Below are positions 28,345 to 30,812 of a DNA stretch of 64,000 bases, piece after piece (position 1 is the stretch's first letter; each line of letters begins with the position of its first letter). The DNA comes from Oscillospiraceae bacterium (GTDB lineage Bacteria > Bacillota > Clostridia > Oscillospirales > Ruminococcaceae). The translations under genes and the position numbers were made by a program. Below the pieces are notes generated by a model. The model was not told the DNA's origin. It did no database searches and saw nothing but the letters and a program-made list of their open reading frames with translations. Where the stretch lies: NCBI GenBank assembly GCA_017466865.1, contig JAFTTI010000013.1, positions 149,985 to 213,984 on the forward strand, read 5' to 3'.

Positions 28345-29157
28345 ATGTTCAAAAAAATAACAGCTTTTTTACTCATAGCAACGATGTGTTTTATCCTTTC
28401 GGGATGTAGCAATAACGGTACTTCGGTCAGCGAAGGCGCTGAAACAGGAAATCCTGAAGAAATTGTCAAAGGATATTATACTTGTCTTATAAACGAAAAA
28501 TACGATATTGCCTATGACAAATATGTTTCAAGCATATCAAAGGTTTTCGAAACAAAGGAAGAATTTTCTCAGCGAATGGAGCTTTCTGCTTTTATGCAGG
28601 ACAAAAAGCTAAAGGATGTTCTTATAAACGATGCTGAACTTGTTATGGGAACAGAAGATGTTATCTATAAAATCAAGGGTATCGCAAAATACGAACTCGA
28701 TGGCGAAACAATAACAGAAGATTTTTTTGAATATGTAATCACGCAGAAGCAAACAGGATTCAACCGAATTTTAATTGATGGTGCACTTTCTGCAAAGCCT
28801 TATGAAATGGCAAACGGAAAAGGACTTCATGCATCAAAAGTTATGGTTTATAACACCGTTGAAGGAAAACGCGTTAAAATGACTATGACAAACAACGACG
28901 TTATTTTCCATGCTATCGGAAAAGAAACTATGCCTCCTATGCTTGAAATCGTTGTTGGCGGAAGAACAAGACCTTGCAAATTCCCATCGTATACAATAAT
29001 CGAACCAGGAAAAACTGCTGAATTCACAGCGGAATATGATGGAGTTTCAGGTGAGGTTACAAAGGTTGTCCTTTCTTCAATCTATGCTGTCGGAGAAAAT
29101 AAAAAGCCGTCTGAAGAAGACAGCGGAAGGGTTTATTCACTAACACTCGAAAAATAA
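28345..29157 (+). CDS. Lipoprotein with DUF-like surface domain, function unknown
   Basis: This 270-residue protein has a signal segment ending in the lipobox LSGC (about residue 20), so it is probably anchored outside the membrane. Residues about 35-140 look like an NTF2/DUF4878-style fold (EIVKGYYTCLINEKYDIAYDKY), followed by a beta-rich domain (about 150-265). No enzyme motif is visible. It has its own promoter and GAGGTG site. It is convergent with the large non-coding RNA on the opposite strand, and both share the terminator hairpin. Confidence 0.8.
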   Translation: MFKKITAFLLIATMCFILSGCSNNGTSVSEGAETGNPEEIVKGYYTCLINEKYDIAYDKYVSSISKVFETKEEFSQRMELSAFMQDKKLKDVLINDAELVMGTEDVIYKIKGIAKYELDGETITEDFFEYVITQKQTGFNRILIDGALSAKPYEMANGKGLHASKVMVYNTVEGKRVKMTMTNNDVIFHAIGKETMPPMLEIVVGGRTRPCKFPSYTIIEPGKTAEFTAEYDGVSGEVTKVVLSSIYAVGENKKPSEEDSGRVYSLTLEK

Positions 29158-29164
29158 CAGAAAT

Positions 29165-29198
29165 TGCAAAGGGAGCGACTATTGCCGCTCCCTTAATA
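29165..29198. terminator. Shared terminator of the lipoprotein gene and the large RNA
   Basis: The stem GGGAGCG/CGCTCCC (29171-29177, 29186-29192) lies between convergent transcripts. The T-tracts are modest in both directions (TTAATAATTT on plus, TTTGCAATTT on minus). Confidence 0.65.
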
Positions 29199-29239
29199 AT
29201 TTATTTGAAGTTTTTCGTCGCACTACCGACTATGCCAAG

Positions 29240-29594
29240 GGACTCACTCCTATCTGTTTAGATTCTTTTATTTACCTTTGGCATGATAATCAACTCTTTA
29301 CTAAAGATTTTAACCTATGCGGAGAAATTCATCCGCTAAAATGAGTATCCTGTCGGACTCACCCCTTATAATCAAATTTAAATGTTCAAATCGTGAAAAG
29401 TGGGCACAATCATTACCATATATGCCAACTCCCTCCGTTTAAAATTTGAAGAAGTGAACGACTTTCATCGTTTCGCAAAACTTTCGGGTGGTCTCACTCC
29501 AATCTAACTAAATTTTTCTGTCAAATGTCCTTAAAATCATAAGCATACCTTCTTTATAAAAGATGTAGTTACTTAATGGTGCATAGGACTCACC
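29240..29594 (-). repeat. Four dispersed GRGTGAGWCC motifs in the large RNA
   Basis: On the minus strand GGAGTGAGTCC (29240-29250), GGGGTGAGTCC (29355-29365), GGAGTGAGACC (29490-29500) and GGTGAGTCC (29586-29594) recur at spacings of roughly 95-135 bases. Each sits in or beside a hairpin. The 5' half has a related GGCGTGTC-type motif at about 29744, 29913 and, weaker, 29946. Confidence 0.7.
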
Positions 29595-30073
29595 TTTCCT
29601 GAAAGTTATTTTTTGCAGCCGATAAATATATCAAAACCTCACGGTTTAAGTTCTGGTTTATACCGCGTACAGCTGTTGACACTGCACCGATAAAGACCCA
29701 TAATCCCTATTGCCCAGGAACAAAACCCTGACTTTCGGATTACGACACGCCTTATTGTCTAAAACTTATCCTTAACCGATAAAACATCGTAATTTCGGAG
29801 TGGCTATCTGCCTTTTCAACTCCGCCAAAAGCAACGGACAGTTTACAACACGGCCACAAGCATGTCTACGAAAAGATTCTGCTCTGAGCTGATTTCTGAA
29901 ATTTTATCCAACGGACACGCCTGCCTTTCCGATAATAATTGTAAGCTGACACCCTTACCTCGTTTACGAATGATAAACTGTCGCACCCGACTATGTAAAC
30001 CTAACCGCAACCTTATGATAAGGATCGTTACTATCTTAGAGCCCTGACCTCTTGTGGTCTTCTCTATGTTTAT

Positions 30074-30102
30074 AATATACCACCACTTTTGGTTAATGTC
30101 AA
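30074..30102 (-). promoter_or_regulatory. Promoter of the large non-coding RNA
   Basis: On the minus strand TTGACA (30097-30102) and TATATT (30074-30079) are separated by 17 bp. The predicted start is near 30066. Confidence 0.75.
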
Positions 30103-30253: not shown

Positions 30254-30574
30254 ATGTTTAACGAAGAAGAAATCAGTTTTACTCCAGATTTATATACTCT
30301 TGTTGATGAAAACGGCGAAGAACAGACATTCGAACTTTTAGACGCTATGGAATATGAGGGTGAAAGATACTACGCGCTTACGCCTTACTATCCAAACGCT
30401 GAAGATTTGCTCAATGATAACGGCGAACTCACTATACTCAAATCCGAATTTGTTGATGATGAAGAAATGATGATTTCTATTGAGGATGACGATGAGTTTG
30501 AGAAAATCGCTGAAATTTTCCTTGAAAGAATTGAAGTTATGTTTGATGAACCCGAAGACGAAGATGATTTCTAA
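30254..30574 (+). CDS. DUF1292 family protein (YrzB-like)
   Basis: This 106-residue very acidic protein matches the DUF1292 pattern: LVDENGEEQTFELLDAMEYEG, then RYYALTPY and a final acidic tail. The family is conserved in Firmicutes and has no known function. In Bacillus its gene neighbours ireB/yrzL; here ireB lies about 14 kb away. The AAAGGAG site is 8 bases before the ATG. Confidence 0.88.
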   Translation: MFNEEEISFTPDLYTLVDENGEEQTFELLDAMEYEGERYYALTPYYPNAEDLLNDNGELTILKSEFVDDEEMMISIEDDDEFEKIAEIFLERIEVMFDEPEDEDDF

Positions 30575-30619: not shown

Positions 30620-30812
30620 AGGAAAGATATTCTGCCTTGTGCGTCAGATGTGATTTTTATAATCCAACACATAATTAAAGGGACTTGACCTCCGGATATG
30701 GATTGCAGACCTCCCGCTTTTGCGGACGAAGGGAGCGCGAAATATCAGGGGCATAACCCACCTGCTGAGTGCGGGTTTTATGCTTCACATCAACGGCAAG
30801 GCGGTCTTTTTT
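30620..30812 (+). ncRNA. ssrS: Probable 6S RNA
   Basis: This RNA of about 190 bases has the 6S layout. A long, bulged closing stem joins GCCTTG-TG-CGT-CA-GATGTGA (about 30633-30653) to TCACATC-A-ACG-G-CAAGGC (about 30785-30802). Inside are a large open central region, a terminal GC-rich hairpin (CCGC/GCGG, CTCCC/GGGAG), and a 3'-side hairpin GCATAACCC/GGGTTTTATGC. A promoter lies just upstream and CTTTTTT just after the stem. 6S binds the housekeeping polymerase. Identification is by structure only. Confidence 0.65.

Follow-up and report, generated by a model that had tools for sequence, protein, structure and literature searches.

The minus strand of the 64,000-nucleotide window (the whole stretch of DNA that was analysed) carries a gene that is discrete and conserved and has a promoter of its own, as supported by comparison with its relatives, and the body of the RNA that it specifies, about 0.8-1.6 kb long across the family, is probably a translated array of ribosome-binding modules. 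Each module would consist of a Shine-Dalgarno (SD) site, a start codon, an ORF of 2-26 codons and a stop; the start codon often lies in a small hairpin, and modules have been duplicated and have diverged. A preliminary description had presented the locus as an ornate non-coding RNA; the term "non-coding" no longer fits an array of ORFs, each of 2-26 codons and led by an SD, in which starts, stops and frames seem to be maintained beyond controls. The evidence for the array is comparative: the promoter, a repeated motif (GGRGUGAGUCC), the starts, stops and frames of the tiny ORFs and some of the start hairpins are supported by comparison, and from sequence we infer both transcription and translation of the RNA. 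The component parts (minigenes, start hairpins and a leader-like first ORF, ORF1) are of known kinds; to our knowledge, no free-standing gene built of them has been described in any bacterium.

The locus, its promoter and its relatives

The minus-strand TTGACA-17-TATATT promoter of the preliminary description is present (Table 1), and such a promoter also stands upstream of most motif clusters of the family (69 of 82 in the fetched loci); the 13 clusters without one include two unrelated viral matches, and several others are truncated by the end of the locus. Fifty-four promoters, including the window's own and all chosen for having such a promoter, align without gaps to the consensus TATTGACATTnCACAAAAAGTGTGnTATAnTATATTCAAGGAAA, in which the consensus spacer is CACAAAAAGTGTG. 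This spacer is a near-palindrome in many relatives and is possibly an operator. At E 0.01, a sequence model of the promoter has matches in 317 of the family's 396 genomes, and 85 of the 396 reach E 1e-8; most of the weak matches are probably ordinary strong promoters. For 39 further regions behind promoter-model matches of varied strength, the ORF lists were read, without individual scoring: clear arrays among them include L161, L168, L169, L172 and L173, and regions that plainly do not belong to the family of RNAs include L167, L198, L199 and, despite E 6.7e-9, L210. In genome G000 only this locus falls below E 0.004, the weak matches in the family look ordinary, and the promoter was not retained as a private operator. 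Three promoter matches outside the family (E <=1e-7) were likewise set aside, two of them entering ordinary long ORFs and the third lying in a locus that ends too early.

Table 1. Features of the RNA gene and its surroundings in the window.
Feature	Position	Strand	Remarks
6S RNA	30626..30811	+	Rfam RF00013; adjoins DUF1292 gene
DUF1292 protein, divergent neighbour	30254..30574	+	Pfam PF06949, E 1e-15
Promoter TTGACA-17-TATATT	30074..30102	-	TG before -10; 11/12 consensus positions
Transcript, ~0.9 kb	29165..30067	-	presumed start ~7 nt past -10; presumed end at hairpin
ORF1, (M)DKISEISSEQNLFVDMLVAVL-stop	29843..29911	-	UUG start; RBS GGCGUGUCC
Hairpin HP1, CGGAGUUGAAAAGGCAGAUAGCCACUCCG	29796..29824	-	
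Motif copy AGGUGAGUCC / AGGTGAGTCC	29586..29595	-	
Minigene MHH-stop	29573..29584	-	
Tiny ORF MILRTFDRKI-stop	29508..29540	-	
Motif copy GGAGUGAGACC	29490..29500	-	
Possible tiny ORF VRPPESFAKR-stop	29465..29497	-	GUG frame of motif; start uncertain
Tiny ORF MVMIVPTFHDLNI-stop	29378..29419	-	start codon in hairpin GGCAUAU x UUGUGCC; codons AUG GUA AUG AUU GUG CCC ACU UUU CAC GAU UUG AAC AUU UAA
Motif copy GGGGUGAGUCC	29355..29365	-	
Possible tiny ORF VSPTGYSF-stop	29336..29362	-	GUG frame of motif; start uncertain
Motif copy GGAGUGAGUCC	29240..29250	-	
Minigene (M)A-stop	29230..29238	-	UUG start
GGGAGCG/CGCTCCC hairpin	29169..29194		possible terminator, common to convergent gene 28345-29157

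In 27 members of the family, measured from the promoter to 130 nt beyond the last motif, the RNA is 777-1552 nt long. At its 3′ end in the window, the terminator hairpin proposed earlier was borne out in part: the GGGAGCG...CGCTCCC hairpin is real, and a terminator scan reports it on the plus strand only. Among ORFs of at least 40 aa within the RNA region none looks gene-like. The earlier statement that the region has no credible ORF stands for ordinary ORFs and probably fails for the array of SD-led ORFs of 2-26 codons.

The homologues that the preliminary description proposed to collect by nucleotide search exist in number. In the window's genus, a DNA search found the RNA in five of six genomes, including the window's own, and the sixth, without a match, is 74% complete. 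Across the family, 57 of 396 genomes gave matches, mostly weak and often colinear, that cover the promoter, the 5′ part and short pieces bearing GGRGUGAGUCC. A scan of GTDB for two such motifs 95-125 bases apart returned 83 stretches, 23 of which (actinobacteria and others) were put aside by title; among the other 60, the 57 for which titles are listed are Ruminococcus, Oscillospiraceae, Clostridia or Clostridiales, with one Lachnospiraceae and one Merdivicinus. The gene is chromosomal and conserved in the window's family; most of the relatives that have names belong to Ruminococcus and other Oscillospiraceae. No match to the RNA turned up in phage or plasmid records, and two pattern matches in IMG/VR were judged by eye to be unrelated.

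The upstream neighbourhood recurs in part. A 6S RNA lies near the RNA gene in 11 of 18 relatives' loci scanned, at about 0.5-2.1 kb from the promoter in the loci measured, and most loci have an ORF of roughly 80-190 aa directly upstream of the promoter. By eye, this upstream gene encodes a divergent DUF1292-like protein in 8 of 16 loci, is a different gene in L122 and is missing as an ORF in one more; in the remaining six, the ORFs listed may merely mirror coding sequence in another frame or on the opposite strand. The convergent ORF behind the window's RNA (28345-29157, plus strand) encodes 270 aa, looks lipoprotein-like by eye and matches nothing in Pfam at E 0.01. A partial SAM riboswitch (L029, 1-83) and a T-box-like leader (L022, 2823-3025), both below the gathering score, were seen close to the RNA genes of two relatives.

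The repeated motif and the tiny ORFs

The RNAs of the family share a repeating layout, in which an ORF1 of 13-26 codons near the 5′ end is followed by ORFs of 8-16 codons and by minigenes of 2-4 codons, the last mostly MA-stop (AUG GCA UAR) and placed directly after GGAGUGAGUCC plus N. Rule-based calling recovered an ORF1-like ORF from 59 of 61 RNAs; two of the picks (L047 and L048) differ from the ORF1 of the SD-led ORF listing, and in the two misses (L114 and L120) ORF1 lies earlier than the scanned range. In the window's genus, ORF1 begins with UUG, and four relatives share it with the window copy. The ORFs of 8-16 codons have conserved C-termini (FHDLNI-stop, KEYEF-stop and LKI-stop), and synonymous codons vary in FHDLNI-stop and TKRLNI-stop. 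Modules have been duplicated within RNAs (MITKGYHDLNI occurs twice in L061 and MIKGFYRLEI three times in L208), and the number and kind of peptides differ between lineages.

The repeated motifs of the preliminary description correspond to GGRGUGAGUCC, with four copies in the window; conceivably, this motif could act as a bulged complement to the 3′ end of 16S rRNA. Where an AUG follows the motif within 5 nt, a stop comes after two or three codons in 92 of 110 copies (TAA 57, TAG 22 and TGA 13, related copies included). Against the array, most motif copies have no AUG behind them (177 of 265 are not minigenes), and the SD touches the motif's GUG, which leaves their start codon uncertain. Many motif copies have ACA, AAG or CCN in the place of the AUG, and their frame still closes soon. 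When the motif's GUG sets the frame, translation would meet a stop within nine codons in 44 of 47 distinct minigene copies, against 23 and 15 in the other frames, and in 72 of 87 other copies, against 44 and 41; at random places the figure is about 46%. Sponges of the CsrB/RsmZ type are built of repeated GGA in loops, and CsrB acts through such GGA repeats. Many GG-rich repeats in one RNA could make this family a sponge for CsrA, or an SD-type sponge, that works by binding only; we consider this highly improbable, since many copies of the motif have G or C in place of the A of GGA, its third base varying among A, G and C, and the stop codons appear to be under selection.

The layout of an SD at working distance, an AUG, a few codons and a stop occurs far more often than composition predicts. 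A count over 27 of the 61 RNAs, chosen for this purpose, gave 171 SD-led AUG ORFs that do not exceed 26 codons, against 48.6 expected from dinucleotide shuffles, and 65 that do not exceed three codons, against 10.0. Taken alone, the window copy is not significant (three AUG ORFs against 1.5 expected, with 5 of 40 shuffles as good), and L012 does no better than its own shuffles in its count of tiny ORFs.

Comparison of sister RNAs argues for translation of these ORFs. Across 21 disjoint pairs of sisters, start and stop are aligned in the sister for 59 of 64 minigenes; for ORFs of at least eight codons, both ends are kept in 70 of 112, and the other 42, which do not keep both, count against the array. 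With each pair read in both directions, so that events can count twice, changed ORF stops became another stop in 35 of 82 cases, as opposed to 178 of 1192 for other stop triplets; starts were kept in 282 of 320 ORFs, as opposed to 564 of 969 other ATGs; and 27 of 38 gapped ORFs kept their net frame, whereas outside ORFs 57 of 373 indels were multiples of three. Over 70 ORF pairs, pN/pS is 0.60 (0.51-0.72) in frame and 0.78 and 0.88 in the shifted frames, and by halves it is 0.48 for the C-terminal and 0.72 for the N-terminal part. Differences by codon position (104/93/125) speak against translation, being only weakly coding-like, with a weak excess at position 3. A column-shuffle null (amino acid identity 570/735 vs 529) was discarded as biased, because differences cluster.

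Selection on the peptides themselves would be expected if the RNA were a polycistronic micropeptide mRNA, in which ORF1 (13-26 aa) and the peptides of 8-16 aa served as signals, inhibitors or membrane peptides and the minigenes tuned translation. The lower in-frame and C-terminal pN/pS, the C-termini conserved through synonymous changes and the presence of an ORF1-like ORF in nearly all RNAs examined are in keeping with such a role. However, the N-terminal halves are more variable, the number and kind of peptides shift between lineages, ORF1 codons may partly serve RNA pairing, and the products of two-codon ORFs are almost free of information, yet minigenes are the best kept of all. We regard micropeptides as a possible function, less than even in probability and equal in likelihood to the translation-sink mechanism considered below.

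RNA folding and hairpins

The local hairpins of the preliminary description hold up. The window RNA has a minimum free energy of -254.3 kcal/mol, compared with -221.9 +/- 7.1 for 20 dinucleotide shuffles (z -4.58, no shuffle as good), and the hairpins of the family show some covariation. The 9-bp long-range match, also part of that description, exists exactly in the window (GACAGTTTA with TAAACTGTC) and was rejected as a helix: L010 keeps it, L009 (96% identical over the query) shows a single mismatch, and neither side was found in L011, so that two of three relatives checked do not keep it and conservation lends it no support. We estimate that chance alone would give about 1.5 matches of this kind in 900 nt.

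In the 5′ region, HP1 follows ORF1 and was found by pattern in 20 of 61 RNAs, its GGAGU/ACUCC stem being replaced by GGAAGU/ACUUCC in 3 of those 20. Behind it, a hand-picked hairpin with a GAUUA loop was studied in 10 distinct sequences, one of them probably mis-picked: its pairs 1-4 form in 9, 10, 8 and 9 of the 10, with several pair types, and the best of 500 shuffles reach 9, 9, 8 and 9, so that single pairs are hardly better than the control. RNAalifold recovers HP1 and a CCGCA stem in this region with a covariation term of -0.08; covariation in the 5′ region thus comes down to one hand-picked hairpin. The CCGCA...UGCGG stem with UAUUUUUAUACC resembles an internal terminator in many relatives, e.g., L101:1210-1354 (-) and L118:2373-2527 (-).

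Leader peptides with attenuators consist of a short ORF followed by hairpins. The 5′ region is arranged alike, and 17 aligned relatives have ORF1, HP1, the GAUUA hairpin and the CCGCA...UGCGG stem with a U-run in this order. ORF1 and its hairpins might accordingly control read-through into the array or into a downstream gene as the regulated part, and of 41 loci with a listed downstream ORF of at least 80 aa, 27 have the first such ORF on the strand of the RNA. Such a leader differs from the window copy, in which the gene behind the RNA is convergent rather than same-strand and the U-run is absent. Moreover, the downstream proteins of relatives are, by eye, of several unrelated kinds, and in L118 and L062 the RNA ends in a terminator-like hairpin with a U-run. 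We consider attenuation an improbable account of the RNA.

Pairing also touches the starts of the ORFs. Codons inside ORF1 pair with the RBS that precedes it, and the two sides seem to change together between relatives (GCGAGUC/GGCUCG, GCGUGUC/GACAUGC, GGGAGUCC/GGGCUCU and UUCCG/CGGAA); in the window, GGCGUGUCC can pair with GACAUGC inside ORF1. The mean for this pairing is -13.2, compared with -10.4 for shuffled coding parts, and it beats nearly all composition shuffles in only 11 of 41 RNAs. Start codons of the longer tiny ORFs often lie in hairpins (GUGCAAU/AUUGCAC, GUGCAG/CUGCAC and GGCAUAU/UUGUGCC), with a mean of -5.5 kcal/mol versus -4.5 kcal/mol for swapped partners, and no more than 31 of the 110 ORFs do better than 90% or more of the swaps; these start-codon hairpins seem to covary.

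The folding energy, the covariation of some hairpins and the motif copies without AUG would also suit a structured non-coding RNA in which the ORFs were incidental and the SD-like motifs were binding sites for protein or rRNA. Substitution of stop for stop, frame-keeping indels and the stop bias of one frame would be unexpected in such an RNA, and RNAalifold gave few invariant pairs within the motif, where a conserved helix had been sought and was not retained. We consider this explanation unlikely, about to the same degree as attenuation.

Known systems and possible functions

No Rfam family reaches threshold inside the RNA: with the window region searched to E 10 and the whole window at gathering, only the nearby 6S RNA does so. 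The best match inside the window RNA is mir-1302 (E 0.81), and this and the weak matches inside RNAs to GibS (E 0.5) and RefA9 (E 0.21) are chance-like. The raiA-motif (ModT) RNA, which like the RNA described here is a large conserved RNA of Bacillota, has a model in the Rfam library, and that model gave no match here. It is described as a monomeric structured RNA (PMC12286853; PMC11706538). The kinship to GOLLD, ROOL and OLE suggested by the preliminary description is not supported: what is shared is a large, richly folding bacterial RNA, and neither the window nor seven relatives' loci searched to E 0.5 matched any of the three models, nor did phage records match the RNA. A further trait of GOLLD, ROOL and OLE is homo-oligomeric RNA assembly. 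GOLLD and ROOL occur in phages and prophages, often near tRNA islands (PMC12286853); unlike them, the RNA described here lies beside DUF1292 and 6S RNA genes and shows coding signals. In the open-licence literature searched, including passages of PMC7580957, PMC12286853 and PMC8708949 and the main text of PMC8040213, we found no description of the RNA.

The modules are closest to bacterial minigenes such as those of LEE1, LEE4 and axe-txe (2-6 codons in leaders), with which they share an SD, an AUG, few codons and a stop. The minigenes described in PMC8708949 stand singly or in twos before a gene and act in cis on it. The family RNAs differ in being separate RNAs, each composed of tiny ORFs that number from several to a dozen. 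In insects, the tarsal-less/polished rice gene gives one "non-coding" RNA with several very short ORFs. This RNA shares with ours the several very short ORFs; in contrast, it is eukaryotic, repeats similar peptides and has neither two-codon ORFs nor SD modules.

Varied N-termini, better-kept C-termini and best-kept two-codon ORFs would fit an RNA in which translation itself matters, and the N-terminal codons perhaps vary with the hairpins. In E. coli, minigenes can deplete tRNAs via release of peptidyl-tRNA, a strong SD allows re-initiation on minigenes without dissociation, and two-codon ORFs, especially those ending in UAA, are reported as most toxic (PMC8708949). We therefore propose, tentatively, that the RNA may act by being translated, as a sink for, or a sensor of, initiating ribosomes, initiator tRNA or peptidyl-tRNA: with strong RBSs and ultra-short ORFs, each transcript would take up ribosomes, let them terminate and take them up again many times over, and a terminating ribosome may open one start hairpin and so expose the next. 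Conceivably, though we hold it as doubtful as the preceding proposal, the family is a new class of RNA whose hairpin-gated modules pass ribosomes on like dominoes, as a sink for ribosomes or peptidyl-tRNA or a gauge of translation capacity. The conserved C-terminal residues suggest that the peptides may matter too, as a pure sink needs no such conservation. 6S RNA is a known sink for RNA polymerase; the proposed sink or gauge of translation would sit beside it.

Gene finders usually drop ORFs so short, and RNA finders take RNAs of this kind to be non-coding; hence a gene made wholly of ORFs of 2-26 codons escapes both. If the array is confirmed, what this bacterial gene produces would be translation as such, or else a set of micropeptides, and it would offer a natural system for studying very short ORFs. 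Furthermore, other candidates for ornate non-coding RNAs may hide similar arrays.
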